A stretch of DNA of 64,000 nt from positions 248,001-312,000 of the forward strand of contig NC_020510.1 in the NCBI RefSeq assembly GCF_000348805.1. The letters are read 5' to 3'. The position numbers and the translations under genes were made by a program. Numbering within the stretch: the stretch's first letter is position 1; each line of letters begins with the position of its first letter. The stretch is from Blattabacterium cuenoti BPAA. Its GTDB lineage: Bacteria > Bacteroidota > Bacteroidia > Flavobacteriales > Blattabacteriaceae. Positions 3,295-29,055 of the stretch are shown here, piece after piece. The notes beneath the pieces are model-generated. The model saw only the letters and a program-made list of their open reading frames with translations. It did no database searches and had not been told where the DNA came from.

Positions 3295-3297
3295 AAC

Positions 3298-6956: not shown

Positions 6957-6968
6957 AATCATAAAAAA

Positions 6969-6997
6969 AGTCTCTTGATTTTCAAGAGGCTTTTTTA
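6969..6997. terminator. Intrinsic terminator, bidirectional, shared by ompA-like gene and tatC
   Basis: A 10-bp stem (6969-6978 with 6982-6991, one G-T pair) closes a 3-base loop and is followed by six T on the plus strand; on the minus strand an A-rich run before it becomes the U-tract. It begins 13 bp after the ompA-like stop codon and covers the last codons of tatC. This is the only clear intrinsic terminator I found in the window. Confidence 0.85.
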
Positions 6998-7785: not shown

Positions 7786-7866
7786 AATGAAATTTTATTA
7801 TATATAAAAAAAATAATACATTTTTTTTCAATAAAAATTGTAATTTTTATGTTAAATTTCATATAA

Positions 7867-8886
7867 ATGAAATGTGGAATTATAGGACTTCCAAATACAG
7901 GAAAATCAACATTTTTTAATCTGATTTCCAACTCAAAAGCTTTATCAGGAAATTTTCCTTTTTGTACCATAGAACCTAATTATGGAATCACAAAAGTCCC
8001 AGATGAAAGATTATACGAACTAAAAAAAATCATTAATTCTACTACTACAAAAATAACTCCATCTGAAATAAAAATAGTAGATATAGCTGGATTAATTAAA
8101 GGATCGCATAAAGGAGAAGGGCTAGGAAATAAATTTTTATCTCATGTTCGTGAGACAAATGTCATGATACACATGATTCGTTTCTTTCGTGATAAAAGTA
8201 TCCTTCATGTGGAAGGATCTGTCAATCCTATTAGAGATAAAGAAATTATTGATATGGAATTACAGTTTAAAGATCTAGAAACGATAGAAAAAAAATTAGA
8301 AAAAACTACTAAAAAAAATCAAATCAACAAATCTACACATATACTGAAAAAAATTTCTTCTTTCTTAAAAGAAGGAAAAAATATTAGAATGTATCCATTT
8401 CAAGAATCTGAAAAAGAATCTATAAAAGATTTACAATTACTCACTGTTAAACCTGTTCTTTATATCTGTAATCTAGATATAGATGATGAATTAGATCAAA
8501 AAACTAATTTACATATAGAAAATATGAAAAAAATGGTAGAAATGGAAAATTCTACTTTAGTAATTTTATCATTAAAAAAAAATTGTATAGAACTTGATCA
8601 AGTGTTGAAAAAAACCTATAAGTTACTAAATCTACAAAGTTTTTTTACAATAGGAAAAAAAGAAATTCGATCTTGGTCTATTCCTAATCCATGTACAGCT
8701 TATGAAGCATCTTCAGTGATTCATACAGATTTTAAAAAAGGATTTATTCGGGCAAAAGTTATTCATTATAATGATTTTATCAAATATAGATCTGAAGAAA
8801 ATGTGAAAAAAGCAGGAAAAATATTTTTAGCAGGAAAAAATTATCTCATTCAAGATGGAGATATTATTCACTTTCGATTCCATTAA
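7867..8886 (+). CDS. ychF: Redox-regulated ATPase YchF (Obg family)
   Basis: Universally conserved P-loop protein of the TRAFAC class that binds ribosomes and prefers ATP. The P-loop is GLPNTGKS at residues 7-14 (family GLPNVGKS), followed by NFPFCTIEPN (switch I), DIAGLIKGSHKGEGLGNKFLSHVRE (G3 and following) and YICNLD (the altered G4, NxxE/D). The C-terminal TGS-like domain ends in a GDIIHFRF segment. At 339 residues it is about 25 shorter than usual; the missing part lies in the helical domain. Its stop overlaps the stop of the M42 peptidase by 4 bp. Confidence 0.95.
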   Translation: MKCGIIGLPNTGKSTFFNLISNSKALSGNFPFCTIEPNYGITKVPDERLYELKKIINSTTTKITPSEIKIVDIAGLIKGSHKGEGLGNKFLSHVRETNVMIHMIRFFRDKSILHVEGSVNPIRDKEIIDMELQFKDLETIEKKLEKTTKKNQINKSTHILKKISSFLKEGKNIRMYPFQESEKESIKDLQLLTVKPVLYICNLDIDDELDQKTNLHIENMKKMVEMENSTLVILSLKKNCIELDQVLKKTYKLLNLQSFFTIGKKEIRSWSIPNPCTAYEASSVIHTDFKKGFIRAKVIHYNDFIKYRSEENVKKAGKIFLAGKNYLIQDGDIIHFRFH

Positions 8887-9968
8887 TAAAAGAACTGATT
8901 TATATTATTATTAATTTCTTGTAAGGTTTCAAAAATGAGTAATACAGTTAGTTCTACATCTTTTTTATGAACCATTTCTACTGTGGTATGCATATATTTA
9001 AGAGGAATGGAAATTAAAGCAGACAATACTCCCTTATTGGAATAAGCGAAAGCATCTGCATCTGTTCCTGTGCTAGATGAGACCAAACGTTGAAAATGTA
9101 TTTTTTTCCTATTAGCAGTATGAATCATCAACTCTCTAATACTTTTATGGATTGAAGGAGCATATCCAATGACAGGGCCTAATCCACATTTAATATCCCC
9201 TTGTATTTTTTTATCAATCATAGGACTATAAGTATCATGTGTTACATCGGTAACAATTGACACATTGGGTTGTATAGTTTGAGAAATCATTTTTGCACCT
9301 TTTAATCCCACTTCTTCTTGAACTGAATTTACTATATATAATCCAAATTTTAGATTTATCCCACTTTCAATTATAATTTTTGCTACTTCTGCTATAATAA
9401 ACCCTCCTATTTTGTTATCTAATGCTCTAGATACAAAATAATTTTGATTCATAATAAAAAACTTATCAGGATAAGTAATCATACAACCTACATGAACCCC
9501 CATATTAATTACTTCAGTCTTACTGGAAACACCAATATCTACAAATAGATTCTCTACATTAGGATATTTTTCTGATGAAGGTTTTCTTGTATGAATGGCA
9601 GGCCATCCAAATACTCCATGTACCAATCCTTTTTCCGTATGAATGATTACTCTTTTAGATGGAGAAATTTGGGGATCGGCCCCTCCATTACGAGATACAT
9701 ATATTATTCCTTCTTCTGTGATATAATTAACGTACCATGATATTTCATCAACATGAGCTTCAAGAATCAATTTGTATGGAGAATTAGGATTAATAATTCC
9801 TACTGCTGTACCATATAAATCAGTTTGGATTTTTTCTATATAAGAACTAATATGGTTCATCCATATTTTTTGTCCTTCATTTTCATTTCCTGTTGGGGAA
9901 AATTTATTCAAATATTTTTCAAGAAATTGAATAGAATCACTATTAATTGAATATGAATAATTACTCAT
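8883..9968 (-). CDS. M42 family metallo-aminopeptidase
   Basis: Zinc/cobalt aminopeptidase of the M42 family (glutamyl aminopeptidase/deblocking type), a cytosolic tetrahedral enzyme that trims peptides. The 361 residues are standard length. Metal and catalytic motifs are visible: AHVDEISWYV with His72 and Asp74, the bridging Asp in SRALDNKIGG, EEVGLKGA with the catalytic Glu pair, and the Asp in VTDVTHDT; the late His sits in YMHTTVEMVHKKD. Substrate preference cannot be told. It lies 18 bp downstream of dapF and is probably co-transcribed with it. Confidence 0.92.
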   Translation of the reverse strand: MSNYSYSINSDSIQFLEKYLNKFSPTGNENEGQKIWMNHISSYIEKIQTDLYGTAVGIINPNSPYKLILEAHVDEISWYVNYITEEGIIYVSRNGGADPQISPSKRVIIHTEKGLVHGVFGWPAIHTRKPSSEKYPNVENLFVDIGVSSKTEVINMGVHVGCMITYPDKFFIMNQNYFVSRALDNKIGGFIIAEVAKIIIESGINLKFGLYIVNSVQEEVGLKGAKMISQTIQPNVSIVTDVTHDTYSPMIDKKIQGDIKCGLGPVIGYAPSIHKSIRELMIHTANRKKIHFQRLVSSSTGTDADAFAYSNKGVLSALISIPLKYMHTTVEMVHKKDVELTVLLIFETLQEINNNINQFFY

Positions 9969-9986
9969 TGTTTTTTTTCGATTTTT

Positions 9987-10784
9987 CTAAATAAGGATGG
10001 AACCTTTAAATATAAATTTAACATTTCCGGTTAAATGAATATCAAAATATTCATTTTTTGTTTTTTTTAATGAAACCCATAATTTTCCTCCAAGAGTTTG
10101 GACTAAAATTTTTTCCACATCATTTTTTATTTTATTTGTTTCACATGCGGCGATGACAGAAGCCACAACTCCTGTTCCACAAGATAAAGTTTCGTTTTCT
10201 ACTCCTCTTTCATAAGTACGGACTTGTAGCATATTATTTTTAAGTATTTTTACAAAATTCACATTGACTCCTTTTTCCAAATAAGGACTTTGAAATCTAA
10301 TTTTTTTTCCTTCTTGGAATACGTTTTTTTCCTTGATATTTTCTACAAATAAAATATGATGTGGAGATCCTGTATTTAGAAAAACGTATTTCTTATGAAT
10401 TTCTATTGTATTTTTATCTATATTAATAAGATTTATAGAAACCAAATTATCCCTTATGAATCCATCATGATATCCATCTATAGCTCGAAAATGAATTTTA
10501 TTTTTTTTTGGAATTCCTAATTGATTAGCAAAATAAATTGCACATCTTCCCCCATTTCCACACATTGTGCTTTCTTTTCCATCAGAATTACAATATTTCA
10601 TATAAAAATCACTTTTATATTCATCATCATTTTGAATCAAAATAATTCCATCGGCTCCAACTCCAAAATGTCTATCACACAATTTTTTGAATAAAAAAGG
10701 ATTTTCTATTTTTTTTTGTCTAGAATCTAGGAGTATGAAATCATTTCCAGTTCCTTGATATTTATAAAAATTCAATTTCATCAC
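9987..10784 (-). CDS. dapF: Diaminopimelate epimerase
   Basis: Converts LL- to meso-diaminopimelate, needed for lysine and for the peptidoglycan cross-link. Of 265 residues, KYQGTGNDFILLD opens the enzyme; the two catalytic cysteines are Cys75 in MCGNGGRC and Cys202 in LSCGTGVVAS. Both are intact, so the enzyme should work. The start is ATG at 10784 or the second ATG three bases on (MKLNFYKYQ fits homologues better). Together with the diaminopimelate-type MurE in this window it shows that the wall is of the meso-DAP type. Confidence 0.96.
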   Translation of the reverse strand: MMKLNFYKYQGTGNDFILLDSRQKKIENPFLFKKLCDRHFGVGADGIILIQNDDEYKSDFYMKYCNSDGKESTMCGNGGRCAIYFANQLGIPKKNKIHFRAIDGYHDGFIRDNLVSINLINIDKNTIEIHKKYVFLNTGSPHHILFVENIKEKNVFQEGKKIRFQSPYLEKGVNVNFVKILKNNMLQVRTYERGVENETLSCGTGVVASVIAACETNKIKNDVEKILVQTLGGKLWVSLKKTKNEYFDIHLTGNVKFIFKGSILI

Positions 10785-10808
10785 AACGAATTTAATATTA
10801 TTTTTTGA

Positions 10809-10816
10809 TATATTTG
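10809..10816 (+). promoter_or_regulatory. Possible -7 promoter element of degQ
   Basis: TATATTTG, identical to the box before the ompA-like gene, ends 28 bp before the degQ ATG and matches TAnnTTTG. No TTTG is found at the -33 position. Confidence 0.38.
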
Positions 10817-10844
10817 TTTGTGTGTAATCACTAATAAAATATAG

Positions 10845-12353
10845 ATGAAGAAAATAGTTTTTTATATTGTACTGAGCAGTATTATGAGTTCAATAATCAC
10901 AATTGCTGCATATAAACAATACTCTAAAGAAAAACCTTTACTCTTTCCATATACATCATCCTCAAAAACAAGGTTTACCTCATCAGATTCTTCCTCATTA
11001 GTTAGTTCTGCTGGATTTCCTGATTTTACTAGAGTCGTATCAAAAACCATACATGCAGTAGTCAATGTCAAAAATTATTCAAAAAAATATAACAATCAAT
11101 TTGATCCATTTGATTTCTTTTTTGGTTTTCCTGATGATTTTGGTGGAAACAATAGAGAAAGAAAACCTCAAAGAAATGATCTTCCTGGACTTCATGGATC
11201 TGGAGTCATTCTATCTCCTGATGGATATATTGTGACTAATAATCATGTCATAAAAGATGCAGAAAAAATAGAAATTACTCTTAGTGATCAAAGAACTTAT
11301 AAAGCTAAATTAATAGGAACAGATCCTAGTACCGATATCGCTTTATTAAAAATCAATGAAACAAATTTACCCTTTATTTATTTTTCGGATTCTAATAAAG
11401 TACAAGTAGGAGAATGGGTTCTAGCGATAGGAAATCCTTTTGATTTAAACTCTACTGTTACAGCCGGGATCATAAGTGCAAAAAATAGAAGTTTGGGGAT
11501 ATTAAGAGGAGAAACACAAACCTCTTCTATTGAATCTTTTTTCCAAACAGATGCAGCGGTCAATCCTGGAAATAGTGGAGGGGCTTTAATTAACACGAAT
11601 GGAGAATTAATTGGAATTAACACAGCTATTTCTTCAGCTTCAGGAAATTTTATAGGATATAGTTTTGCGGCTCCTTCTAATTTGGTAGCAAAAGTGATCC
11701 AAGACATAAAAAAATACGGAATCGTACAACGTGCATATTTAGGAGTGAGAGGAATAGATCTTTCTAAAACAGAATATTTAAAAGCTTATAATAAAGAAAC
11801 ACATCAAAATATAAAATCACAACAAGGTTTTTTAATAGGAGAAGTTTTTGAAAAAAGTGGAGCGTCAGATGCAGGACTTAAAAAAGGAGATATCATAAAA
11901 AGCATAGATGGAAAACCTATACAAAATGTTGCAGATCTTTCATTTATCGTAGGAACAAAACATCCAGGAGATGAAGTAAAAGTAAATATTATACGTAGCA
12001 AACAAAAAAAAATTTTTCATGTTATTTTAAAAGATTTACAAGGAAGAACAAAAATAAGAACCAAGGAGGAAATGACTCCATCTGAATTATTAGGAGCAGT
12101 ATTTGAGCCACTTAGTCAAGAGTCTAAAAAAGATTTTGGAATTGGTTATGGAATTAAAATCAAAGAGATCAGAACAGGTCGTTTAAGTGCTATCGGTTTG
12201 GAAGAAGGAGATATTATTTTATCTATTAATGGAGTCAGGATGAAAAAACCTAATGATGTAGATAGTGTTTTAAAAAAATACTCAGGAGATGTGACCATAA
12301 AATCGATTAAACAAAATGGACAAGTATATATAGCAGGATTTGAAATGAATTAA
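10845..12353 (+). CDS. degQ: Periplasmic serine protease/chaperone of the Do/HtrA family
   Basis: Envelope quality-control protease. An N-terminal hydrophobic segment (residues 4-22) is a signal peptide or anchor. The trypsin-like domain has the full catalytic triad: His134 in NNHVIKDA, Asp164 in STDIALLKI and Ser244 in NPGNSGGAL. Two PDZ domains follow (about 300-395 and 410-500), each with a GDIIxSING-type ligand loop (GDIIKSIDGK and GDIILSINGV). A glycine/Phe/Asp-rich LA-type loop sits at about 85-105. Length (502) is normal for DegP/DegQ-type proteins; degP and degQ cannot be separated from sequence alone. The stop shares TTAA with the convergent permease. Confidence 0.94.
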   Translation: MKKIVFYIVLSSIMSSIITIAAYKQYSKEKPLLFPYTSSSKTRFTSSDSSSLVSSAGFPDFTRVVSKTIHAVVNVKNYSKKYNNQFDPFDFFFGFPDDFGGNNRERKPQRNDLPGLHGSGVILSPDGYIVTNNHVIKDAEKIEITLSDQRTYKAKLIGTDPSTDIALLKINETNLPFIYFSDSNKVQVGEWVLAIGNPFDLNSTVTAGIISAKNRSLGILRGETQTSSIESFFQTDAAVNPGNSGGALINTNGELIGINTAISSASGNFIGYSFAAPSNLVAKVIQDIKKYGIVQRAYLGVRGIDLSKTEYLKAYNKETHQNIKSQQGFLIGEVFEKSGASDAGLKKGDIIKSIDGKPIQNVADLSFIVGTKHPGDEVKVNIIRSKQKKIFHVILKDLQGRTKIRTKEEMTPSELLGAVFEPLSQESKKDFGIGYGIKIKEIRTGRLSAIGLEEGDIILSINGVRMKKPNDVDSVLKKYSGDVTIKSIKQNGQVYIAGFEMN

Positions 12354-15927: not shown

Positions 15928-17900
15928 TGAAACGGAAAAGATATATTTTATTATATAAATCTTATTTAGTTGGTTTTTTATTCATATTTATTGCCGCATT
16001 AATTATTTTCAATTTATTCTATATTCAAAATTATTCAGAAGGATACAAAAAATCTGTTATAAGAAAAACGATTAGAACCAATTTAATTAAAGCAAAACGT
16101 GGAAATATTTATGCGTCAGATAATAGTATTTTAGCAATGTCTGTTATAAGATATGAAATTCACATCGATTTTAGATCCATATCTGAAAAATTATTTCAAG
16201 AAAATATTTATTCTTTATGTAATTCTTTGGAATTTTTATTTAAAAAACCAAAATTTTTTTTCTATAAAAAATTTCAATACGAAAAAAAAAAAGGAAATAG
16301 ATATTTTTTATTAGCAAAGAATTTAGATTATCCACATTTTAAAATATTACGAAATTTTCCCATTTTCAATAAAGGACAAATACGAGGGGGGTTCATTGTA
16401 GAAAAAAAAATATGTAGAATTCACACATTAGAAAATATTGGAAAAAGAACATTAGGATATGATGATCATAGAGGAAAGGTAGGATTAGAAGGGGCTTTTA
16501 GCAAATATTTGAAAGGAAAAGATGGAAAAAGATTAGAACAACGTATTAGCTTTAAAATATGGAAACCATTGAAATCAGGAAACGAAATTCATCCAGAAGA
16601 TGGAAAAGACGTTTATTCCACTATAGATATATATTTACAAGATATAGCCTATCATGCATTACTTCAAGAATTATCCATTTCTCAGGCAGATCATGGATGT
16701 GTTATTTTGATGGATGTAAAAAGTGGAGAAATTCCTGCTATGATCAACCTGGAAAAAACAAAAAAAAGGACTTACGAAGATTTAAGAAATTTTTCAGTAT
16801 GGGAAGGAAGCGAACCTGGATCTACTTTTAAAACAATGGCTATTCTTGCCGCTTTAGAAGATAAAAAAATAGATGTAGATATGATTGTCAATACCAAAGG
16901 CGGAGTCATGAAATTGAGAGGAGAAGAAATACGAGATAGTCATTATAATGGAAATGTTGAAATGAATCCAAAACAAATTTTAGAATTATCTTCAAACGTA
17001 GGAATAGCAAAAATTATTTATGAAAATTATAAAGAAAATCCGGAAAAATTCATAGAACATTTCCGTAAATGGAAATTGGATAGAAAAATAGGGATTGACA
17101 TCCCTGGAGAAAGCATGCCTTTTATTCCAAAACCTGGAAAAAAAAATTGGAGTAGCATTACCTTGCCATGGATGACTTTTGGATATAATATTAAACTAAC
17201 TCCTTTACAAATACTCACTTTTTACAATGCTATTGCAAACCATGGAAAAATGATTAAACCTCTATTTATTAGAGAAATCAAATATCATGGAAAAAGTATC
17301 AAGGAATATACAAAACCTATCATTATGAATCCTTCTATAGCTAGAAAATCTTCTTTAATTAAAATTCAAAATATGTTAGAAGGAGTAGTCAAAAATGGGA
17401 CCGCTAAAAAATATTATAATCCAGAATATCCTTATGCGGGAAAAACAGGAACAACACAGTTAAATTATTGGATGAAAGGAAAACCCTTATCTTACAACAG
17501 TTCTTTTGTAGGATACTTTCCTGCTAAAAATCCAAAATATTCTTGTATTGTAGTCATTTCAAAACCAGAAAAAGGGTACTACGGGATAGAGGTAGCCGTT
17601 CCTGTATTTGACAAAATTGCTAAATCTATTTATCCTATAATAGAAAGAAAAGTACTTTTTAAAAAGAAAGAAAATCAAAAGAATTTATTCAATCAAATTA
17701 TAGAATCAAAAAATTTTTTTATTGATAAATGGATAATGCCTAATGTAGTCTCTGTTCCTGGAAAAGAAATTATACCTATATTAGAAAACAGGGGTTTTCA
17801 CATTCAATATGAAGGAATAGGAAAAGTATTGACTCAATCTATTCAACCAGGAACAAAATTGAAAAAAAATCAGATTATATTTTTAAAACTAGAAGAATGA
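15927..17900 (+). CDS. ftsI: Penicillin-binding protein (septal transpeptidase FtsI type)
   Basis: Class B penicillin-binding protein that cross-links septal peptidoglycan. One N-terminal transmembrane helix (about 13-33) leads into the dimerisation domain, then the transpeptidase domain with Ser299-x-x-Lys302 in GSTFKTM, Ser355-Ser-Asn357 (SxN) and KTG in AGKTGTTQ near 508. A C-terminal PASTA domain (about 605-657, MPNVVSVPGKEIIPILENRG) ends the protein, as is common in Bacteroidota FtsI. An A11 run at 16282-16292 stays in frame. The stop overlaps the murE start by ATGA. Confidence 0.95.
   Translation: MKRKRYILLYKSYLVGFLFIFIAALIIFNLFYIQNYSEGYKKSVIRKTIRTNLIKAKRGNIYASDNSILAMSVIRYEIHIDFRSISEKLFQENIYSLCNSLEFLFKKPKFFFYKKFQYEKKKGNRYFLLAKNLDYPHFKILRNFPIFNKGQIRGGFIVEKKICRIHTLENIGKRTLGYDDHRGKVGLEGAFSKYLKGKDGKRLEQRISFKIWKPLKSGNEIHPEDGKDVYSTIDIYLQDIAYHALLQELSISQADHGCVILMDVKSGEIPAMINLEKTKKRTYEDLRNFSVWEGSEPGSTFKTMAILAALEDKKIDVDMIVNTKGGVMKLRGEEIRDSHYNGNVEMNPKQILELSSNVGIAKIIYENYKENPEKFIEHFRKWKLDRKIGIDIPGESMPFIPKPGKKNWSSITLPWMTFGYNIKLTPLQILTFYNAIANHGKMIKPLFIREIKYHGKSIKEYTKPIIMNPSIARKSSLIKIQNMLEGVVKNGTAKKYYNPEYPYAGKTGTTQLNYWMKGKPLSYNSSFVGYFPAKNPKYSCIVVISKPEKGYYGIEVAVPVFDKIAKSIYPIIERKVLFKKKENQKNLFNQIIESKNFFIDKWIMPNVVSVPGKEIIPILENRGFHIQYEGIGKVLTQSIQPGTKLKKNQIIFLKLEE
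16282..16292 (+). repeat. A11 homopolymer inside ftsI
   Basis: Eleven A encode part of a lysine-rich stretch (YEKKKGNR). The frame continues uninterrupted. Confidence 0.9.
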
Positions 17901-19375
17901 AAAAACTATTAAAAGATGTTTTAAAAAAAGTCTATGTGTTAAAAATAATAGGAAAAAATCCTTTTAAATTTATAGAAGGAATTTCTATGAGTTCTAAAAT
18001 AGTGAAAGACAATATGATTTTTGTAGCTATAAAAGGAAAAAGAACAGATGGACACAAATTTATTATAGATGCAATCCAAAAAGGTGCTAATACTATAATT
18101 TGTGAAAAAAGTTATTTTTCCTTCATCCCTATTCATAAACATATCACTTATGTATTTGTTTCAGATTCTATGGAAGCTTTAGGAGTTATATCATCTAATT
18201 TTTATGATCATCCTACAAAAAAAATAAAATTAATAGGAATAACCGGAACAAATGGAAAAACCTCTGTAGCTACGATCCTTCATCAGTTATTTTCTAAAAT
18301 GGGAGAAAAAAATATTCTTATTTCTACTATGGGAATAAAAATATTATCTATAAAATATCCTACTACACATACAACTCCGAATATTATTGAAATTAATAAA
18401 TATTTAAATATTTCAATCCAAAAAGGGTGCAAATACGCTTTTATGGAAGTAAGTTCACATGGAATCCATCAAAAAAGAATTTCAGGATTATTATTTCAAG
18501 GAGGAGTTTTTACGAATATTACACATGATCACTTAGATTATCATAAGTCTTTTGATCATTATTTATCTACTAAAAGGCTTTTTTTTGAAAATTTATCTAA
18601 AAAAGCTTTTGCATTAATCAATTCCGATGATGAAAATTCGCATCAAATCATAAAAAAAACTTTAGCTAAAACCTATTTTTATGGTATAAAAAAAAATTCT
18701 AATTTCAAAATTTCAATTTTGAAAGAAAACATGAATGGAAATCAATTACTAATTGATGGTCATCAAATTCTTACCTATTTGATAGGAAGATTTAATATTT
18801 ATAATCTATTAGCTAGTTATGCAACAGCTATTTTATTAGGAAAAAAAAAAGAGAACATCCTGAAAAAAATTAAATATGTAAAACCCATCAAAGGACGTTG
18901 TGAGCAATTTTTATCCAACTCAGGTATTCATATTATTGTGGATTATGCCCACAATCCAGATGGATTAAAATCTATTTTAAATACTCTTAAAATCATAAAA
19001 AAAAATAATGAAAAATTAATTTGTGTCATAGGTTGTGGGGGAAATAGAGATATAAAAAAACGTTCTTTAATGGGGAAAATTGTCTATGAAACATGTGATA
19101 TATCTATTTTTACATCCGATAATCCTAGAGAGGAAGATATCAATAAGATATTCAATGATATGAAAAATTTTAAGTCATATCTAAACAAAAAATCTATTTT
19201 AACTTTTGTAAGACGAGAAGAAGCTATTCAAACTGCAATTCAAATTGCAAAAAAAAAAGATATTATTCTAATAGCTGGAAAAGGACATGAAACTTTTCAA
19301 GAAATCAAAGGAATACGTTATTTTTTTAATGATATGAAAATTGCTAAAAATTTGTTAAAAACTTACAATAAGTAA
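17897..19375 (+). CDS. murE: UDP-MurNAc-tripeptide ligase MurE (meso-DAP adding)
   Basis: Adds the third stem-peptide residue to UDP-MurNAc-L-Ala-D-Glu with ATP. The Mur-ligase P-loop GITGTNGKTSVAT is at residues 114-126, followed by the central-domain motif EVSSHG and the SKATN-equivalent region VDYAHNPDGL. The sequence TSDNPREED contains DNPR, which marks ligases using meso-diaminopimelate; this fits dapF at 10 kb. Length 492 is normal. Two A10 runs (18841-18850 and 19249-19258) lie inside without breaking the frame. Confidence 0.96.
   Translation: MKKLLKDVLKKVYVLKIIGKNPFKFIEGISMSSKIVKDNMIFVAIKGKRTDGHKFIIDAIQKGANTIICEKSYFSFIPIHKHITYVFVSDSMEALGVISSNFYDHPTKKIKLIGITGTNGKTSVATILHQLFSKMGEKNILISTMGIKILSIKYPTTHTTPNIIEINKYLNISIQKGCKYAFMEVSSHGIHQKRISGLLFQGGVFTNITHDHLDYHKSFDHYLSTKRLFFENLSKKAFALINSDDENSHQIIKKTLAKTYFYGIKKNSNFKISILKENMNGNQLLIDGHQILTYLIGRFNIYNLLASYATAILLGKKKENILKKIKYVKPIKGRCEQFLSNSGIHIIVDYAHNPDGLKSILNTLKIIKKNNEKLICVIGCGGNRDIKKRSLMGKIVYETCDISIFTSDNPREEDINKIFNDMKNFKSYLNKKSILTFVRREEAIQTAIQIAKKKDIILIAGKGHETFQEIKGIRYFFNDMKIAKNLLKTYNK
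18841..18850 (+). repeat. A10 homopolymer inside murE (first)
   Basis: Ten A after GG, in frame within the region encoding LGKKKENILKK. Confidence 0.85.
19249..19258 (+). repeat. A10 homopolymer inside murE (second)
   Basis: Ten A in the region encoding QIAKKKDIILIAGKG, in frame. Confidence 0.85.
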
Positions 19376-19376
19376 G

Positions 19377-20561
19377 ATGATTTATTTTTTTAATAAATAC
19401 TTAATTATAAATTCTGTTTTTTATAGAGCTATTATAGCTTTTTTTTTATCATTTTGTATAGCTTTGATTTTGTATCAAAAAATTATATGTTGGAATCAAA
19501 AAAATAGTGTGATAGGAGAAAAAATACGAGATCTTGGACTTTTTGGTCAAAAAGAAAAAGAAGGAACCCCAACTATGGGAGGGGTTGTTATGATATTTTC
19601 CACGTTAATTTCTACAGTATTGTTTTCTACTTTAAATAATGTGTATGTATTAATGTTGATAATGACCACATTGTATATGGGTTGTATTGGATTAATAGAT
19701 GATTATATTAAAATAAAACATAATAAAAAAGGACTTAGTGTAATGGGAAAAATATTTAGTCAAATTTTATTAGGAATTTTTATTGGAATCACTATGTACT
19801 TTAACACAAACATTTCTATTCAAAAACAAAAAATAGAATCAAAAGATTCACACTTTTTTAAAAAAAAAGAATATGGGTTCAATACCACTATTCCCATTTT
19901 TTCTTCTATATATCATAATCATGAATTTAACTATGCTTATCTTTTGAGTTGGTATAATCAAAAATGGAAAAAATATGCATGGATTGTTTATATTCCTATT
20001 GTTGTTGGAATTATTACGTTTTTATCCAATGGAGCTAATTTAACGGATGGAATAGATGGATTAACAGCTGGAATTTCTTCTATTATTTTTGCTCTCTTTT
20101 CTTTATTATCTATAATTTCCAGTAATAAAATATATTCCTTCTATTTTCATTTTATATATATTCCTCATTTAGAAGAAATCATTATATTTTCTTTTTCTTT
20201 TTTAGGATCTTTAATAAGTTTTCTTTGGTATAATACTTATCCAGCTCAAATTTTCATGGGAGATACAGGAAGCCTAACTATAGGAGGAGTCATCGCAACA
20301 CTAGCTATTATCAATAGAAAAGAATTAATATTGCCTATCTTGTGTGGAATTTTTTTTATAGAAAATATTTCTGTAATCATGCAAGTATTGTATTTTAGAT
20401 ATTCTAAAAAAAAATATGGTATAGGAAAAAGAGTTTTTCTAATGGCTCCTTTACATCATCATTTTCAAAAATTAGGATATCATGAAAATAAGATTTCCAA
20501 TCGTTTTATTATCATACAAATGATGCTTTCTATGTTAGTATTTCTTTTATTAATTATATAA
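19377..20561 (+). CDS. mraY: Phospho-MurNAc-pentapeptide transferase MraY
   Basis: Inner-membrane enzyme that attaches phospho-MurNAc-pentapeptide to undecaprenyl phosphate, giving lipid I. The 394 residues have about ten hydrophobic spans. Diagnostic motifs are KEGTPTMGGVVMI near residue 60, GLIDDYIKIKHNKKGLS (catalytic Asp pair), NLTDGIDGLTAG and the C-terminal MAPLHHHFQKLG. An extra hydrophilic loop of roughly 50 residues (about 145-200) is typical for Bacteroidota forms. It follows murE after one base. Confidence 0.96.
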   Translation: MIYFFNKYLIINSVFYRAIIAFFLSFCIALILYQKIICWNQKNSVIGEKIRDLGLFGQKEKEGTPTMGGVVMIFSTLISTVLFSTLNNVYVLMLIMTTLYMGCIGLIDDYIKIKHNKKGLSVMGKIFSQILLGIFIGITMYFNTNISIQKQKIESKDSHFFKKKEYGFNTTIPIFSSIYHNHEFNYAYLLSWYNQKWKKYAWIVYIPIVVGIITFLSNGANLTDGIDGLTAGISSIIFALFSLLSIISSNKIYSFYFHFIYIPHLEEIIIFSFSFLGSLISFLWYNTYPAQIFMGDTGSLTIGGVIATLAIINRKELILPILCGIFFIENISVIMQVLYFRYSKKKYGIGKRVFLMAPLHHHFQKLGYHENKISNRFIIIQMMLSMLVFLLLII

Positions 20562-20573: not shown

Positions 20574-21937
20574 ATGAAAAACAAATTTATAGTTGTATTG
20601 GGTGGAGGAGAAAGTGGAGTAGGAGCAGCTTTATTAGCTAAAAAAAATGGATTAAAAACATTTTTATCGGATTCTGGAATTATTCTAAATAAATACAAAA
20701 AAATTTTAACAAAGAATAAAATTCCTTTTGAAGAAAAAGGACATACAGAGAATATTATCATTCAAAATGCTATTAAAGTGATAAAAAGTCCTGGAATTTC
20801 TAGAAATAATCCTTTGATAAAAAAAATCAATTATTTGGGGATTCCTATACAATCCGAATTAGAATTCGGAAAAAGTTATATCGAAAATTCTTATGTTATC
20901 GGGATTACAGGAAGTAATGGAAAAACAACGACTTGTTCCATTATTTATAAAATTCTTAAAAAAGAAGGAATGAATGTAGAAATAGCAGGAAATATTGGAC
21001 ATAGTTTTTCTAAAAAAATCATAAAAAAAAAGATATTTATATATTAGAAATGAGTAGTTTTCAATTAGATGATTGTTTGAATTTTCGTTCAAATATTGCC
21101 GTATTATTAAACATAACAAGAGATCATTTAAATAGATATGATAATAATATTGAGAATTATATTGATTCCAAATTTAGAATAGCCACTTTTCAAAAAAAAG
21201 AAGATATTTTCATTTATAATTATGATGACCCTATTATAAGAGAGGGGATAAAAAAATATCCCATTGTATCTCATTGTATTCCTTTTTCTATAAAGGAAGA
21301 ATTACATGTAGGCGCTTATATAAAATCTAACAAAATATTTATTCGAAATCAAAAAAATAAAGAAATATATTTTTTAAATGTAAAAGATATTCCTTTAATA
21401 GGAGATCATAATCTCTATAATATTATGGCTTCATTAATTATATCCGAAATATTAAACGTAAAAAAAGAATTAATAATTTCCATACTATTAAAATTGAAAT
21501 CCATAGAACATCGTATGGAAAAAATATCAAATATAAATGGAGTACAATTTATTAATGATTCTAAAGCCACTAATGTAAATGCCGTTTTTTATGCATTAAA
21601 AAGTATGAATGCGCCTATTATATGGATAGTAGGAGGAGAAGATAAAGGAAATAATTATGTAGAATTAATTCCTTTGGTTAAAAAAAAAGTAAAAGCCATA
21701 ATTTGTTTAGGAAAAAATAATAAAAAAATTATAAATTTTTTTAAAAATATCATTGATATCATTTTGGAAACAAAATCCATTAAAAAAGCTGTTTATATGG
21801 CTTATATATTATCTTCTCATGGAGATCATGTTTTATTCTCTCCTGCTTGTTCTAGCTTTGATCTTTTTAAAGATTATAAAGAAAGAGGAAATAAATTTAA
21901 GCAAGAAGTAAGAAAACTAATTTATGAAAGTTTATGA
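20574..21937 (+). pseudogene. murD: UDP-MurNAc-L-Ala:D-Glu ligase MurD, frameshifted at an A9 tract (possibly rescued)
   Basis: Adds D-glutamate to UDP-MurNAc-L-Ala. The gene is split into two frames: 20574-21047 (157 residues, with the P-loop ITGSNGKTTT) and 21050-21937 (295 residues, with HRMEK, NDSKATN and the C-terminal ligase domain). Near the break the first frame reads KKIFIY then stops, while the second, read from just before, gives DIYILEMSSFQL, the expected MurD continuation. One additional A in the run at 21023-21031 would restore a single 454-residue protein of ordinary length. No other damage is visible. Because the step is essential and all neighbours are intact, slippage on the A-run may restore function; a sequencing error is the other simple explanation. 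Confidence 0.9.
21023..21031 (+). repeat. A9 tract at the murD frameshift
   Basis: Nine A between AT and GATATT. Ten would keep murD in frame. It is the junction between the two murD frames. Confidence 0.92.
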
Positions 21938-23114
21938 AAAAATAAATCTTTTTTTAAAAAAATATATAAAAGGAGATAGATATTTATGGGCTTTTATCTC
22001 TTTACTGGCTATATTTTCATTTTTACCAGTTTATTCTGCTAGCACAAACTTAGTGACTACATATGGAGGGACGAATACAGTATTTCGTTATTTATTTAAA
22101 CATGCTATTTTTTTGTTAGTTGGGTTTTTTCTCCTTTTTTTCACTCAATTTATAGACTATAAATATTTTTATAAAATGTCTATCCTTTTCATGCCTATCA
22201 TATTCATTTTATTAATTTTTACAATGAGTCAAAGAAAAGAATTAGATGGAGTAAATGCTTCTCGTTGGTTACATCTTCCTATTCTCAATATATCTTTTCA
22301 AACTTCCAGTATCGCTGGATTGGTTCTTTTCATTTATTGTGCTAGATATTTGTCTCAAAAAAAGAAAGAACGAATCAACTTGAAAAATTCTTTTTTTCCC
22401 TTGTGGTTTCCAATATTTTTGATCATTGGACTTATTTTTCCATCGGATGGATCTACTGCTGCTATGATTTTTATATCCGTTTTAATTTTACTTTTTATAG
22501 GAGGAATCCCATTAACAAGTGTTATAGGGTTTCTTTTCATGGGTTTTTTATTTTCAGGAATATATATTTATTCTGTTATAAAATGGGGAGATAAAAAACC
22601 TATGAATAGGGTTTATACATGGAAAAGTCGTATAGAAAAATTTTTGGATCATGAATCTGAAGAAAGTTATCAAATGAAACAATCTAAAACGGCTATTGTT
22701 TTAGGAAATAAATTTGGTCGTGGTCCTGGAAAAAGTGTTTTAAAAGCCTTTCTTCCACAATCTTCTTCAGATTTTATCTATGCTATTATCATAGAAGAAT
22801 ATGGATCTGTTGGAGGCGTAATTCTTTTATTCATTTATATACTAATTCTCATAAGAATTATGATAATAGCGACGAAAGTCCAAAATTATTCTTGTTCTTT
22901 ATTGGTCCTTTCTGTAGGGTTTCCTATTATTAATCAAGCACTTATTAATATGGGAATTGCTGTTGGTTTATTTCCAGTCACAGGACAAACTTTGCCTCTG
23001 ATTAGTGCTGGAGGGACTTCTATATGGGTTACTTTTTTAAGTTTTGGGATCATATTAAGCGTAAGTCGACTGATATATTCTCACTCAAAAATTATAATTC
23101 ATCATGAATCATAA
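21924..23114 (+). CDS. ftsW: SEDS-family glycosyltransferase FtsW
   Basis: Polytopic peptidoglycan polymerase/lipid II-processing protein of the divisome. About ten transmembrane spans over 396 residues; motifs include GVNASRWLHLP after the fourth span, YQMKQSKTAIVLGNKFGRGPGKS in the long loop, FIYAIIIEEYGSVGG and the C-terminal FPVTGQTLPLISAGGTS that defines the SEDS family. Its position between murD and murG identifies it as FtsW rather than RodA. The start overlaps the end of murD by 14 bp. Confidence 0.94.
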   Translation: MKVYEKINLFLKKYIKGDRYLWAFISLLAIFSFLPVYSASTNLVTTYGGTNTVFRYLFKHAIFLLVGFFLLFFTQFIDYKYFYKMSILFMPIIFILLIFTMSQRKELDGVNASRWLHLPILNISFQTSSIAGLVLFIYCARYLSQKKKERINLKNSFFPLWFPIFLIIGLIFPSDGSTAAMIFISVLILLFIGGIPLTSVIGFLFMGFLFSGIYIYSVIKWGDKKPMNRVYTWKSRIEKFLDHESEESYQMKQSKTAIVLGNKFGRGPGKSVLKAFLPQSSSDFIYAIIIEEYGSVGGVILLFIYILILIRIMIIATKVQNYSCSLLVLSVGFPIINQALINMGIAVGLFPVTGQTLPLISAGGTSIWVTFLSFGIILSVSRLIYSHSKIIIHHES

Positions 23115-24213
23115 TATTTCACCACCTAAAATAATTATTGGAAGTGGAGGAACAGGAGGGCACATCTATCCTGGAATAGCTATTGCTAACGAACTTAAAA
23201 AAAAAATTCCAAAAATTGAGATTTTGTTTATTGGATCTAAAAATCATATGGAAATGCGAGAAATCCCAAAATGGGGATATTCCATTGAAAAAATTTGGAT
23301 TTCAGGTGGAAAAGAGAAATTTTTTTCTTTATCAGGTTTTATTTTATCTATCCAACTAATATATAGCTTGTTTTTGGCAAATAAAATTATGAAAAAATTT
23401 TCTCCAGATATAGTTATCGGAACAGGTGGTTTTGTCAGTTTTCCTACCTTATATGCTGCAAAAAAAAATAAAATACCTATTTTGATTCAAGAACAGAATT
23501 CTTTTCCTGGACTGACTAATAGAATATTTTCTCGTTATGCGAATAAAATATGTATTGCTTATGAGCAAGCAAAAAAATTTTTTCCCCAAAAAAAAACGAT
23601 TATAACTGGAAATCCAGTCAGATCTGAAATTTTACACTTGCCTAGTAAAGAAAAAGCTTGTATTCATTTAGGATTAAACATAACAAAACCTATTATTTTA
23701 TCTATAGGAGGGAGTCAAGGATCCAATAGTATGAATAATGCTTGGATAAAAGGATTAAAACGGATAATAGAATTGGATATGCAACTGATTTGGCAAGTAG
23801 GAAAACTTGATCTTTATAAAATTAAAAAAAATAAAATGTCTCATCATTCGAATATTCTTTTCATGGAATTTATTGAAAATATACCGGCATGTTATGCTGC
23901 AGCAGACATCATTGTATCTAGAGCTGGAGCTTTGACTATATCAGAAATATGTTTAATAGGAAAACCATATATATTGATTCCTTTTCCTTGGTCTTCCAAT
24001 GATCATCAAAATCAAAATGCTAAAATATTAGAAGAAAAAAAAGCGGCTTTAATTATAAAAAATGAGGAAATAGAGAAAAAATTAGTGAATTCTGTTATAA
24101 AATTAGTGAATGATTCCAGCATGAAAAAAAAAATGAGTAGCAACATATTAAAATTAGGAAAACCTAAAGCAACAAACGATATTGTAAACGAGATTTTACA
24201 AATTATTTTATGA
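23104..24213 (+). CDS. murG: UDP-GlcNAc:lipid I GlcNAc transferase MurG
   Basis: Peripheral membrane GT28 enzyme making lipid II. The N-terminal G-loop GSGGTGGHIYPGIAIA starts at residue 13, with the second G-loop IGTGGFVSFP at about 106 and IGGSQGSN in the middle; the C-terminal donor site has SRAGALTISEI followed by PFPWSSNDHQNQNA. All are intact, with 369 residues as expected. It overlaps ftsW by 11 bp and murC by ATGA. Confidence 0.96.
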   Translation: MNHNISPPKIIIGSGGTGGHIYPGIAIANELKKKIPKIEILFIGSKNHMEMREIPKWGYSIEKIWISGGKEKFFSLSGFILSIQLIYSLFLANKIMKKFSPDIVIGTGGFVSFPTLYAAKKNKIPILIQEQNSFPGLTNRIFSRYANKICIAYEQAKKFFPQKKTIITGNPVRSEILHLPSKEKACIHLGLNITKPIILSIGGSQGSNSMNNAWIKGLKRIIELDMQLIWQVGKLDLYKIKKNKMSHHSNILFMEFIENIPACYAAADIIVSRAGALTISEICLIGKPYILIPFPWSSNDHQNQNAKILEEKKAALIIKNEEIEKKLVNSVIKLVNDSSMKKKMSSNILKLGKPKATNDIVNEILQIIL

Positions 24214-25586
24214 ACTTCAAAAAAATTGATTTTTTTTATTTTATAGGAATAGGAGGAATGGGGATGAGTTCCCTAGCTAGATATTTTCATACTATGGGTA
24301 AAACTGTTTGTGGACATGATCAAAATAAAACCTTTTTGACAAAAGAATTAGAAAAAGAAGGAATATCTATCAACTATCATGATAGTATAGAAATATTACC
24401 AAAATGGGTATTATCCAAACAATGTTTGATTGTGTATACCCCAGCCATTCCTAGTCATCATAAACAATGGATGTATTTAAAAAAATATGGTAAAAATGTA
24501 AAAAAACGTTCTCAAGTATTAGCTTTCATTACAGAAAATGAGATTTGTATAGCCATAGGAGGAACACATGGAAAAACAACTACTTGTACCTTATTAGGAC
24601 ATATTTTATATAGTTCTGGAATGAATGTCACTGCTTTTTTAGGAGGAATATCTGAAAATTATAAATCAAATTTAATATTGAATCATGTATTGAATGGAAG
24701 AAAAATTTTTTTGGTAGAAGCAGACGAATTTGACCATTCTTTTTTATATTTATCTCCTAATATAGCATGTATAACGTCTTTTGACCAAGATCATGTAGAT
24801 ACTTATCCAAGAAAAGAAACTCTGAAAAAGGCTTATATAGCTTTTTCAAATAGAATCAAAAAACCATATAAAAAAATATTTCTTTGCCGAGAAGAATCTT
24901 GTCGATTCAAGAACGCAATATATTATTCTGTCCTACAAGGAGAAAATTATTATTCCGATCATCTTTATATAAAAGAAAATAAATGGTATTTTGATTTTCA
25001 TACTCCTACAGAAACATGGAAATCTTTACCTTTACCTATTCCAGGTCAACATAATTTAAAAAACGTTACTGCAGCATTAGCTATTTCTGATTATCTAAAA
25101 ATTTCTAAAAAAGAAATCAGGAAAGCTTTATTTTTATTTAAAGGGATCAAAAGAAGATATTCCATTCATTATCAATCTTCAAATAAAATATATATAGATG
25201 ATTACGCACATCATCCTACAGAAATCAATGCTTTGATCTCTACTGTAAGAGAATGTTTTCCAAATAAAAAGATATTGGGAATTTTTCAACCTCATTTATT
25301 TAGTAGAACTAAATTTTTTGAAACATATTTTGCTAAAAGTTTAGAACATCTTGATATTCTAATTTTACTAGATATTTATCCAGCTAGAGAATTTCCCACA
25401 AATGGAACGAATTCTAATAGTTTATTAGAAAAAATCAAAATGAGTTCTAAAGAAATATCTACTCTTTCCAAAGTCTTAGAAAAAATTGAAAAGAAACATT
25501 TTGATATTATTCTAACAATGGGAGCTGGAAATATAGAGGCCTTAATTCTTCCTATCAAAGAATGGTTGTATAAACGATATGGATAA
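24210..25586 (+). CDS. murC: UDP-MurNAc:L-Ala ligase MurC
   Basis: Adds L-alanine, the first stem-peptide residue. The N-terminal UDP-binding segment GIGGIGMSSLARY-like FIGIGGMGMSSLARYF starts the protein, the P-loop is GGTHGKTTTC near residue 117, EADEFDHSFL is the central-domain motif, and YIDDYAHHPTEI marks the C-terminal domain. Length 458 is normal. The end overlaps the ftsQ start by 8 bp (ATGGATAA). Confidence 0.96.
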   Translation: MNFKKIDFFYFIGIGGMGMSSLARYFHTMGKTVCGHDQNKTFLTKELEKEGISINYHDSIEILPKWVLSKQCLIVYTPAIPSHHKQWMYLKKYGKNVKKRSQVLAFITENEICIAIGGTHGKTTTCTLLGHILYSSGMNVTAFLGGISENYKSNLILNHVLNGRKIFLVEADEFDHSFLYLSPNIACITSFDQDHVDTYPRKETLKKAYIAFSNRIKKPYKKIFLCREESCRFKNAIYYSVLQGENYYSDHLYIKENKWYFDFHTPTETWKSLPLPIPGQHNLKNVTAALAISDYLKISKKEIRKALFLFKGIKRRYSIHYQSSNKIYIDDYAHHPTEINALISTVRECFPNKKILGIFQPHLFSRTKFFETYFAKSLEHLDILILLDIYPAREFPTNGTNSNSLLEKIKMSSKEISTLSKVLEKIEKKHFDIILTMGAGNIEALILPIKEWLYKRYG

Positions 25587-26310
25587 ATCAATGAAAAATA
25601 GTAAAACATCCTTTATCATTATTTTATATATGATTTGTATGATCTCGCTTTTTTATTTTTCTAAAAAAACACATCAAAACAGAACTTTAAAAAAATTTAA
25701 TATTGTCATTGATCCCTTATCTCAAAATCATTTTGTAAATGAAGAAATTATTAAAAATATTCTATTTTATAAAACAAAAAAAATTGAAAAAAAAATCGGT
25801 CAATTATGTATATTAAAAATGGAAAAAAAATTAAATCATTACCCTTTTATCAAAAAATCTGAAGTGTTTCTTAGTGTAGATGGAACTTTAAATATTAAAA
25901 TTTTGCAAAAAGAACCTATATTAAGAATCAAAAATGGAAATAAAGAATCTTATCTTACTAAAGATGCGGAAAATTTAGAACTTTCCTCTTTTTTTTCATC
26001 AAAAGTTGTCTTAGCAAAAGGACATTTTTCAAAAGAAGAAAAAAAATATTTAACGAATTTAATAAAATTCATAAACTCCGATGAATTATTAAAAAACCAA
26101 ATTATTAGTATAAAAAAAAATAAAAATTCATTTGTTTTAATTCCAAAAATAGGGAATCATCATATTATATTAGGAAATATAAAGGATTTTAAAAATAAAT
26201 TGAATAAATTAAAAGCATTTTATAATCAGTACCTAAATAAAATAGATATTAATCAATACAAAAGTATTGATTTACAGTATAAAGACCAAGTAGTCGCAAA
26301 AAAAAGATAA
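25579..26310 (+). CDS. ftsQ: Cell division protein FtsQ/DivIB
   Basis: Bitopic divisome protein with one transmembrane helix at about 10-27 and a POTRA-like periplasmic domain (FNIVIDPLSQNHFVNEEIIKNIL, then the strand HYPFIKKSEVFLSVDGTLNIKI). 243 residues is within the range for Bacteroidota FtsQ. The call rests on position between murC and ftsA plus this topology, since similarity is low. A second in-frame ATG at 25591 is an equally good start. Confidence 0.85.
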   Translation: MDKSMKNSKTSFIIILYMICMISLFYFSKKTHQNRTLKKFNIVIDPLSQNHFVNEEIIKNILFYKTKKIEKKIGQLCILKMEKKLNHYPFIKKSEVFLSVDGTLNIKILQKEPILRIKNGNKESYLTKDAENLELSSFFSSKVVLAKGHFSKEEKKYLTNLIKFINSDELLKNQIISIKKNKNSFVLIPKIGNHHIILGNIKDFKNKLNKLKAFYNQYLNKIDINQYKSIDLQYKDQVVAKKR

Positions 26311-26314
26311 GTCT

Positions 26315-27685
26315 ATGGAATATCAAGATATAGCTATAGGTCTTGATGTGGGAACCACAAAGATTGTAGCTATGGTAGGAAGGAGAAATGAATATAATAA
26401 GATTGAGATCTTAGGCATAGGAAAATCTAAAAGTGTAGGTGTACATAGAGGGGTCGTAAATAATATAACTCAAACAATTGAAGCTATTCGTGAAGCGGTA
26501 TCTGAAGCAGAGCATAGTTCGGGTTTAAAAATAAAAGAAGTTATTGTTGGAATAGCAGGACAACATATTAGAAGTCTACAACATAATGATTATATTACTA
26601 GATTAGATTTTGAAAATGTTATCAGTCAAAAAGATATACAAAAATTAATAGATCAAGTTCATAAACTGATTATGCAACCGGGAGAAGAAATTATTCATGT
26701 TCTTCCACAAGAATATAAAGTCGACAGTCAAGCAGAAATAGGAGAACCAATAGGAATGTATGGAAGTCGTTTAGAAGCAAATTTTCATGTAGTTGTAGGA
26801 CAAATTTCTTCGATACGAAATATTGGAAGATGTGTAAAAGCTGCAGGCTTGAATTTATCTGGAATGACCTTAGAACCTTTAGCTTCTGCTGAAGCTGTAT
26901 TAAGTACAGAAGAAAGAGAAGCAGGTGTTGCTTTAGTGGATATAGGAGGAGGGACTACGGATATTGCTATATTTAAAGATAACATTATCCGTCATACTGC
27001 CGTGATCCCTTTTGGAGGAAATGTCATTACTGAAAATATAAAAACAGATTGTTTGGTTATTGAACGACAAGCCGAATTACTAAAAATAAAATTTGGATCT
27101 GCATGGCCAGGAGAAAATAAGGAAACAGAAATTGTTTGTATTCCTGGATTAAGAGGTCGTGATCCTAAAGAAATTTCTTTAAAATACCTTTCCCAAATTA
27201 TTCATATACGAGTATGTGAAATTTTGGAACAAGTAAATGTAGAAATAAAAAATTATGGAAATGAAGAACAAAAGAAAAGACTGATTGCAGGATTAGTTAT
27301 GACAGGTGGAGGTTCTCAACTTAAACATATTCGTCCATTAACAGAATATATTACTGGAATGGACGTTCGTATAGGTTATTCTAACGAACATATAGCAGGA
27401 GGGGAAAACGGGATTATAAGTAATCCAGAATATGCAACATCTATAGGGTTAGTAATTAAAGGACTTGATGATAAAAAAAAATATCTTTGTACAAACGCAG
27501 AGATGGAACATAGATATAATAGATATGATGGAAATCCTGAGTTGATTTCTACGAAGTTTTATAATAAAAATCGTAGATTAAATTTTGAAGAGGATCAGAA
27601 TCATAAAAAGAAAAAAAATAAAACAAAATCTTTTCTTGAAATTTGGGCAGATAAGTTCCGTCAAATATTGAATGATACAGAATAA
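26315..27685 (+). CDS. ftsA: Cell division protein FtsA
   Basis: Actin-fold ATPase that tethers FtsZ to the membrane. IGLDVGTTKIVAMVG at residues 7-21 is the phosphate-1 motif, VDIGGGTTDIAIF the phosphate-2 motif and VMTGGGSQLKHI the adenosine motif. The C-terminal end KSFLEIWADKFRQIL has hydrophobic and aromatic residues spaced as in the FtsA membrane-binding amphipathic helix. 456 residues. Directly upstream of ftsZ (11 bp). Confidence 0.96.
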   Translation: MEYQDIAIGLDVGTTKIVAMVGRRNEYNKIEILGIGKSKSVGVHRGVVNNITQTIEAIREAVSEAEHSSGLKIKEVIVGIAGQHIRSLQHNDYITRLDFENVISQKDIQKLIDQVHKLIMQPGEEIIHVLPQEYKVDSQAEIGEPIGMYGSRLEANFHVVVGQISSIRNIGRCVKAAGLNLSGMTLEPLASAEAVLSTEEREAGVALVDIGGGTTDIAIFKDNIIRHTAVIPFGGNVITENIKTDCLVIERQAELLKIKFGSAWPGENKETEIVCIPGLRGRDPKEISLKYLSQIIHIRVCEILEQVNVEIKNYGNEEQKKRLIAGLVMTGGGSQLKHIRPLTEYITGMDVRIGYSNEHIAGGENGIISNPEYATSIGLVIKGLDDKKKYLCTNAEMEHRYNRYDGNPELISTKFYNKNRRLNFEEDQNHKKKKNKTKSFLEIWADKFRQILNDTE

Positions 27686-27696
27686 TAAACTATGAA

Positions 27697-29055
27697 ATGA
27701 AAAAAGAAGATTTTATAAAGAAAGAAAACGATCAATTGGAATTTCCAAAAAATCGTTCAGCTTCCATCAAAGTAATTGGAGTAGGAGGAGGAGGAAGTAA
27801 TGCTTTAAGTCATATGTTTGAACAAGGAATAACTGGGGTAGATTTTATTGCGTGTAATACAGATGCACAAGCGTTAAATAATAATCCAGTTCCTATAAAA
27901 ATTCAATTAGGGGCTTCTATTACAGAAGGACTTGGTGCTGGAGCAGATCCAGAAGTAGGAGAAAAGGCTGCATTAGAAAGTTTGGAGGAAATAAAAAGTA
28001 TTTTAGATTCTAATACTAAAATGACCTTCATTACAGCAGGAATGGGTGGAGGAACGGGAACTGGTGCTGCTCCAATTATTGCAGGAATTTCTAAAGAAAA
28101 AGGAATTCTAACTGTAGGGATCGTTACAATTCCATTTCATTTTGAAGGAAAAATGAGATTACAACAAGCTCAAAAAGGAATAGAAGCATTAAGAAAAAAT
28201 GTGGATTCTCTCATTGTGATTAATAATGATAAATTGAGAGAATTATATGGAAATCTAGGATTTAAAGCGGGTTTTTCAAAAGCTGATGAAGTTTTAACGA
28301 CGGCAGCTAAGGGGATTGCAGAAGTCATCACTCATCATTATAAACAAAATATAGATTTAAGAGATACAAGAACCGTTCTCAAAGAAAGTGGTACGGCTGT
28401 TATGGGTTCTTCTATTGCTGTTGGAGAAAATAGAGCAAAAGAAGCTGTTGTACAAGCTTTAGATTCCCCATTATTGAATGATAATAAAATTACGGGAGCC
28501 AAAAATGTCCTTCTTCTTATTGTTTCAGGAAAAATAGAAATTACTATAGATGAAATAGGAATTATCAGTGATTATATACAAGCTGAAGCAGGAAATAATG
28601 CTAATATTATAATGGGTCTAGGGGAAGACGAAGGTTTGGAAGAAAGTATTTCAGTTACTATAGTGGCCACGGGATTTCCTACGGAAATACAGAGAGCTAT
28701 TAATCATGAAGAAAAAAAAATATTTCATAGATTAGAAGAACCTTATGAACAAAGATTAAACAAAATAGAAGAAATCCATTCTTATTCTAAACGGATTGAT
28801 CCTAATTTTTCAAAAACTTATTCAAAATCCAGTCATTTAGAAAAATTTTATTATAAAAATAAAAAAGATGATTTTTTATCGAATCAAAAACAAAACATTT
28901 TTGATCTGTCTATAAATTCAAATTTTTATAAAGAAAAGAAACATAAAAAATACATGTTAGAAGATAGTTTTGATCTTCCGATTTCATACAATGAAAATGA
29001 AAAAAAAATCTTAAAACGTAAAAAAGAAAATAAACCAAATCAAGAGTTAAATTGA
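27697..29055 (+). CDS. ftsZ: Cell division protein FtsZ
   Basis: Tubulin-like GTPase forming the division ring. IKVIGVGGGGSNAL opens the Rossmann part at about 24, the signature GGGTGTGAAP is at 118-127, and NNDKLRELYG and the T7-like FSKADEVLTTAAKGIAE follow. The globular domain ends near residue 335. The 115-residue tail is lysine/asparagine-rich and I do not see a clear conserved C-terminal FtsA-binding peptide. The TGA stop overlaps a TTG start for hisS. Confidence 0.96.
   Translation: MKKEDFIKKENDQLEFPKNRSASIKVIGVGGGGSNALSHMFEQGITGVDFIACNTDAQALNNNPVPIKIQLGASITEGLGAGADPEVGEKAALESLEEIKSILDSNTKMTFITAGMGGGTGTGAAPIIAGISKEKGILTVGIVTIPFHFEGKMRLQQAQKGIEALRKNVDSLIVINNDKLRELYGNLGFKAGFSKADEVLTTAAKGIAEVITHHYKQNIDLRDTRTVLKESGTAVMGSSIAVGENRAKEAVVQALDSPLLNDNKITGAKNVLLLIVSGKIEITIDEIGIISDYIQAEAGNNANIIMGLGEDEGLEESISVTIVATGFPTEIQRAINHEEKKIFHRLEEPYEQRLNKIEEIHSYSKRIDPNFSKTYSKSSHLEKFYYKNKKDDFLSNQKQNIFDLSINSNFYKEKKHKKYMLEDSFDLPISYNENEKKILKRKKENKPNQELN

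Follow-up and report, generated by a model that had tools for sequence, protein, structure and literature searches.

The murD gene of Blattabacterium cuenoti BPAA is broken by a one-base deletion in a run of A, which its distribution indicates is ancient and fixed, and full-length MurD is probably still obtained through insertion-biased slippage of RNA polymerase on that run. That the frame is rescued in some way is very likely, given a gene that is shared in its broken form by many relatives and remains under purifying selection in both of its halves.

The murD locus

The window analysed is a stretch of 64,000 nucleotides from a genome that consists of a single contig of 632,490 bases. The 5′ frame of murD, taken as the zero frame (20574..21047, + strand), comprises 157 codons and a TAG stop (21045..21047), and contains a GSNGKTT motif that we take to be the P-loop. 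It includes nine A followed by G (21023..21031, + strand), and at this tract the frame is one base short. The 3′ part forms an ORF of 295 residues (21050..21937, + strand) that starts MSSFQL at an ATG placed 2 nt beyond the TAG. Within the tract and the following G, the zero frame presents the heptamer A_AAA_AAG (21026..21032, + strand), a possible slip site for a −1 ribosomal shift.

A first-pass annotation had described these two ORFs and the A9 tract, and both are confirmed here. The NCBIfam murD model TIGR01087 (441 positions) matches both ORFs, with profile positions 2-146 on the first and 159-440 on the second, and arithmetic bears out the proposal that one base added to the tract joins the halves into a MurD of 454 residues. 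The annotation also considered the halves to be free of overlap. This holds for the ORFs as counted from the ATG but not for the frames, as the second is open from 21014 and shares 21014..21044 (+ strand; from the translation, with coordinates by arithmetic) with the first, the tract lying inside.

The genes on either side are open: murE and mraY upstream (17897..20561, + strand) and ftsW, murG, murC, ftsQ, ftsA and ftsZ downstream (21924..29055, + strand), putative names assigned on gene order. When 39 kb (window 12239-51239, beginning after positions 1-12238) was compared with relatives, murD was the sole break found in BPAA, in a comparison where many queries were BPAA's own ORFs of usual family length; over this span, the earlier description of the neighbouring mur and fts genes as intact stands. 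Scanned with the murD model, the complete genome yielded the two murD pieces, of which only the 3′ piece exceeded the curated cut-off, together with three other Mur ligase-like places below it. No second murD was found in this search.

Distribution and age of the break

The murE-ftsZ region was taken from 36 congeners and each was searched with both murD halves, giving 37 genomes with that of the window. The halves lie in different frames in 18/37 and in the same frame in 19/37. Every shifted murD is one base short, at a pure A run of A9-A14 (18/18), and murD occupies one frame in 6/6 stretches from outgroup Flavobacteriales. With the same break in 18 of 37 genomes, chance is not a sufficient explanation.

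The same pattern bears on the alternative, raised in the first-pass annotation, that the A run holds a sequencing or assembly error. Homopolymers are error-prone on 454, and one genome (G028) shows several breaks in its division cluster, which would suit an error. Against this, BPAA was sequenced by Illumina HiSeq 2000, according to a published report (PMC4567559), and the break recurs across half of the sampled genus in a single phase with tract lengths of 9-14. A shared, phase-constant break of this kind rules out error in practice.

A tree was built by a quick method from eight neighbouring genes, murD excluded; it has 42 rows, leaves 8 of 39 inner branches open, and shows long branches in its outgroups and in basal rows. 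In this tree, 15 of the 18 shifted genomes fall within one clade of 17 members (SH-aLRT 98%), and the remaining three (L026, L027 and L032) each sit apart on a long branch of their own. At least six changes of frame state are needed on the tree; a single origin at the root with later losses is possible. All 17 clade members have a tract of at least nine A, as read directly. By comparison, 50 other sites with at least nine A were drawn from 11 query segments, comprising both murD halves and nine neighbouring genes. The best of them is kept in 16 members and none in all 17; these sites were read by projecting codons onto the proteins of the window, a procedure that can miss runs. An ATA codon is kept in 10/10 species with an A9 tract, a synonymous conservation that counts for little, as 68 of the 124 comparable ATA sites are invariant as well.

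Two clade members have murD in frame. In L024 the A run is one longer than in its sister L017, and the gene looks to have reverted within the tract. The other, L034 (G028), carries a 2-base deletion just downstream of the tract and was considered as a compensatory revertant, the deletion restoring the frame. It is given no weight, because the same genome has further breaks in ftsL, ftsI, murG and ftsA; these may represent either real decay or assembly quality.

Constraint on the two halves

Internal stops are absent from both murD halves in all 33 genomes that were checked, namely the clade of 17, L026, L027, L032 and 13 in-frame genomes, with four others in frame left out. Expressed relative to the eight neighbours, amino-acid distance in the 5′ half is 1.23 for shifted pairs versus 1.20 for in-frame pairs, and in the 3′ half 1.16 versus 1.37. 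In six close clade pairs, of which two have an in-frame genome as one partner, dN/dS is 0.16-0.28 for the 3′ half and 0.11-0.53 for the 5′ half, a short segment with noisy values. In close pairs, dN/dS of murD is similar to that of murE and murC. With no stops in either half, and rates of evolution no higher than those of in-frame relatives, full-length MurD is evidently still produced despite the break.

These data make it very improbable that murD is a recent or neutral pseudogene whose function has been lost or is supplied from elsewhere. The genus is undergoing genome reduction, with ftsI and ftsL missing or remnant in five genomes, and a decaying murD would fit such a setting. However, murD is the sole copy, it shows no decay across the 17-member clade, and its 3′ half is constrained as in in-frame relatives.

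A split enzyme is equally hard to sustain. Here, translation would terminate and re-initiate at the ATG two bases past the stop, and the two chains would assemble as MurD. The window does present TAG-AA-ATG, and the equivalent codon is ATG in 8/18 shifted lineages and GTG in 2/18; in the other 8/18 it is neither, and re-initiation is rejected on the grounds that its start codon is not conserved. In addition, the join lies inside the stretch matched by Mur_ligase_M, and the residues between the tract and the ATG remain coding in the second frame.

The five genomes with reduced division genes are long branches (L015, L016, L023, L032 and L035). All keep murC, murD, murE, murG and mraY, and four of them, L035 being the exception, also have ftsQ missing or remnant; wall precursor synthesis would thus appear to be retained after loss of the septal synthase. 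A further genome, L026, has partial ftsI and ftsQ.

A second split gene, nadD

The sole nadD of the BPAA genome lies outside the window (G000:C1:331374-331926, − strand; L174) and its split falls at an A10 run. One further match, weak at 23 bits, lies elsewhere in the genome and probably represents a relative, for instance coaD. Among 19 genomes seen with both halves, nadD is broken in 13, at A10-A11. Ten of these are one base short, and three (BPAA, G05 and G12) were scored as one over. Related genomes have A11 between the same flanks, and on that basis the score is read as two short, which is apparently the state of nadD in these three.

No stops occur in either nadD half, and the motifs of both are preserved. 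For the 3′ part, dN/dS is 0.39-0.53 in five shifted pairs, compared with 0.30-0.44 in an in-frame pair and a mixed pair; the shortness of the 5′ part precludes a judgement. These values indicate a constraint that is real but looser.

Frame breaks at A and T runs across the genus

A census of frame breaks was assembled from two sets. The first covers 39 kb in 37 genomes (1874 query-genome pairs, with queries partly redundant) and the second adds 40 kb for 19 of these genomes and 20 kb for the other 18 (1937 pairs). Combined coverage is uneven, at ~79 kb for the group of 19 and 59 kb for the group of 18, about a tenth of each genome. A break is detectable only with a BLAST piece of at least 28 bits on both sides. 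The LptF/LptG-like permease, tgt, murB, rlmB, rsmG, prmC and lipB of the census were identified in the analysis, and murE, ftsW, murG, ftsK, mvaD and others carry names presumed from sequence and gene order.

The first set holds 45 breaks, of which 37 are one base short at runs of at least nine, 18 of these being murD. Thirty-six of the 37 are at an A run and one, tgt in G10, is at adjoining T11 and A9 runs; for mvaD in G35, which is counted, the alignment put the switch near an A10 run and not inside it. Two counted rows have a second switch near the gene end, with no run: one over for ftsL in G28 and one short for murE in G15. Eight rows were not counted: ftsA in G28 (one over at A8, at the gene end), ftsI in G28 (one short at A8, with an A10 also in reach), ftsI in G36 (gene end, no run, with BLAST pieces and alignment differing on the phase), o26 in G36 and o3 in G15 (alignment gave no shift), o33 in G16 (one short at A7), o506 in G12 (weak, the two methods disagreeing) and o5 in G21 (37% identity, mixed). 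The second set holds 31 breaks, namely 13 counted, 13 in nadD and five dropped (o460 in G07, at A8 close to the end of the gene; o461 in G07, unreliable; and three o4 rows in G21, one over and with no run of at least nine). All 13 counted are one short at runs of at least nine, ten at A and three at T; for prmC in G11, the alignment put the switch near an A11 run, not inside.

Frame breaks cluster at A and T runs of at least nine. Outside nadD, the counted breaks at runs of at least nine are one base short in 50/50 cases (37 and 13), and no one-over break at such a run was localised in either set. One-over breaks do occur at shorter runs or none (ftsA in G28, o4 in G21, ftsI in G36, the second switch of ftsL in G28, and o5 in G21). 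With sister lineages grouped, our own tally gives about thirty separate break origins. The broken genes include murG, murE, ftsW, an LptF/LptG-like permease, tgt, murB, rlmB, rsmG, prmC and lipB. With murD and nadD breaks removed from the numerators, the broken fraction rises steeply with run length, from 4/1337 at A9 to 9/507 at A10 and 12/134 at A11, with 3/49 at A12 (table compiled by hand).

Breaks at T runs number four, versus 3.0 expected at the A rate; one of them is tgt in G10, and the other three belong to related genomes. Specificity for A runs had been considered as evidence for the ribosome while the first set offered no clear T-run break. The argument was dropped once the second set was added and T runs proved to be broken at the A rate. 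Deletion in runs at the DNA level could account, in part or in full, for the one-short bias, for the length trend and for the A and T rates being equal. Only the long persistence of breaks requires rescue.

One A run of murE, near residue 319, is broken in both of the distant lineages L007 (A11) and L010 (A10), marking a mutational hot spot. A run of 79 A adjoins a run of 20 A in a stretch of G010 (L147), probably an assembly artefact or an unusual repeat. In a G021 stretch (L158), the homologue of o4_G00_447, which we take to be a membrane transporter-like gene, has three one-over breaks without long runs and is probably decaying.

Mechanism of frame rescue

The first-pass annotation proposed that slippage may keep murD alive. 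The rescue itself is supported by purifying selection on both halves. RNA polymerase is the likeliest agent, although we infer slippage, its direction at murD and its yield from sequence comparison. RNA polymerase would slip at runs of at least nine A, often adding A, so that a fraction of murD transcripts would return to frame and the rest would give a 157-residue fragment. At such runs, added bases would far outnumber lost ones. With insertions greatly exceeding losses, a gene one base short would be tolerated and a gene one base over would not; a one-way insertion error in A and T runs thus predicts the one-short rule seen in the census.

Consistent with this proposal, murD resembles the known class of symbiont genes rescued by slippage in three respects: the indel lies inside a run of about nine or more A in 18/18 shifted genomes, the rest of the gene is intact and under purifying selection (stop-free in 33/33), and the break is conserved across species (15/17 of the clade, with L026, L027 and L032). 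In Buchnera and E. coli transcription, single-base insertions dominate A and T runs and deletions are rare there, and slippage is reported on both kinds of run (PMC5574713). A review places corrected transcripts of endosymbiont genes at 12-50% (PMC5009743), and Baranov and colleagues find selection against slippage evident from length nine in many genomes (PMC1088944).

An alternative that the first-pass annotation did not consider would yield the same protein from an unchanged mRNA: a −1 ribosomal frameshift, in which the single tRNA-Lys slips back one base on A_AAA_AAG. The genome has one tRNA-Lys gene only (anticodon UUU) among 34 tRNA genes, the condition under which this heptamer is very slippery in E. 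coli (PMC5009743). The in-register heptamer is A_AAA_AAG in 11/18 shifted lineages and A_AAA_AAA in 7/18, and a −1 shift would likewise account for the one-short direction. Such a heptamer comes automatically: since any run of at least nine A contains an in-register A_AAA_AAR, the murD sequence alone cannot separate polymerase from ribosome. Other features argue against the ribosome. No downstream structure is conserved (alifold z 0.02, 15 clade sequences), and a Shine-Dalgarno-like motif just upstream is absent from 14 of 15 clade sequences. A −1 shift needs just six A and a G, yet all 18 tracts are at least A9. The third phase of nadD helps to distinguish the two agents, because a gene two bases short, as in three genomes, cannot be mended by a −1 ribosomal shift (although a +1 or −2 ribosomal shift could do so), whereas base-adding slippage can. 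Together, these observations make ribosomal frameshifting an unlikely means of rescue, and slippage of RNA polymerase remains the preferred account.

Discussion

Genes of Buchnera and Blochmannia frameshifted in poly(A) and corrected by transcriptional slippage were reportedly described by Tamas in 2008 and Wernegreen in 2010. This precedent, invoked in the first-pass annotation, is in print (PMC3017870 and PMC5009743), and Blochmannia genes with such breaks are also described in PMC4389277. Like these symbionts, Blattabacterium is an AT-rich insect endosymbiont in which a single-base break lies in a long A run of an otherwise intact gene; the break is conserved between species, and their set also includes cell-wall genes. 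The present case differs in belonging to Bacteroidota, in involving murD and nadD, in affecting half or more of the genomes seen, in its strong one-direction bias and in the third phase of nadD; it is known here from DNA, whereas theirs was seen with cDNA.

Two dnaX systems offer further comparison. As in E. coli dnaX, where A_AAA_AAG directs a −1 ribosomal shift, murD has the in-register heptamer (in 11/18) and a single tRNA-Lys; unlike E. coli dnaX, no stimulator was found at murD. The E. coli shift gives a shorter product, whereas a shift in murD would give the essential full-length one. Thermus thermophilus dnaX, like murD in BPAA, has a run of nine A, on which RNA polymerase slips (PMC3711429 and PMC5009743). 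In Thermus this yields a second product from an intact gene, whereas slippage in murD would restore a broken one.

The phenomenon is known from Buchnera and Blochmannia, and the murD and nadD case in Blattabacterium is unreported in the literature searched: no report of either break was found in the available portions of PMC6039017, PMC6128925, PMC9603385, PMC4567559, PMC2768785, PMC3971599 and PMC3711429, a partial coverage with deposited annotations outside its scope.

A broader reading may be offered tentatively. One-directional correction at A and T runs of at least nine might have become obligate genus-wide for essential genes, and RNA polymerase might have evolved towards high-yield base addition. 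The genes concerned could include murD and nadD and, in single lineages, prmC, lipB, ftsK, murE, murG and others. The roughly thirty one-short breaks would, on such a supposition, be those that are tolerated, and one-over breaks those that are not.

If slippage does restore these frames, transcript-level frame correction would reach a further phylum, where a clade (15 sampled genomes, each from a different species) maintains an essential cell-wall gene in broken form and nadD is broken in 13 of the 19 genomes seen. The direction bias would provide a simple test of how correction limits the mutations that survive. Genes of this kind are easily filed as pseudogenes, so counts of gene loss in reduced genomes may be wrong.
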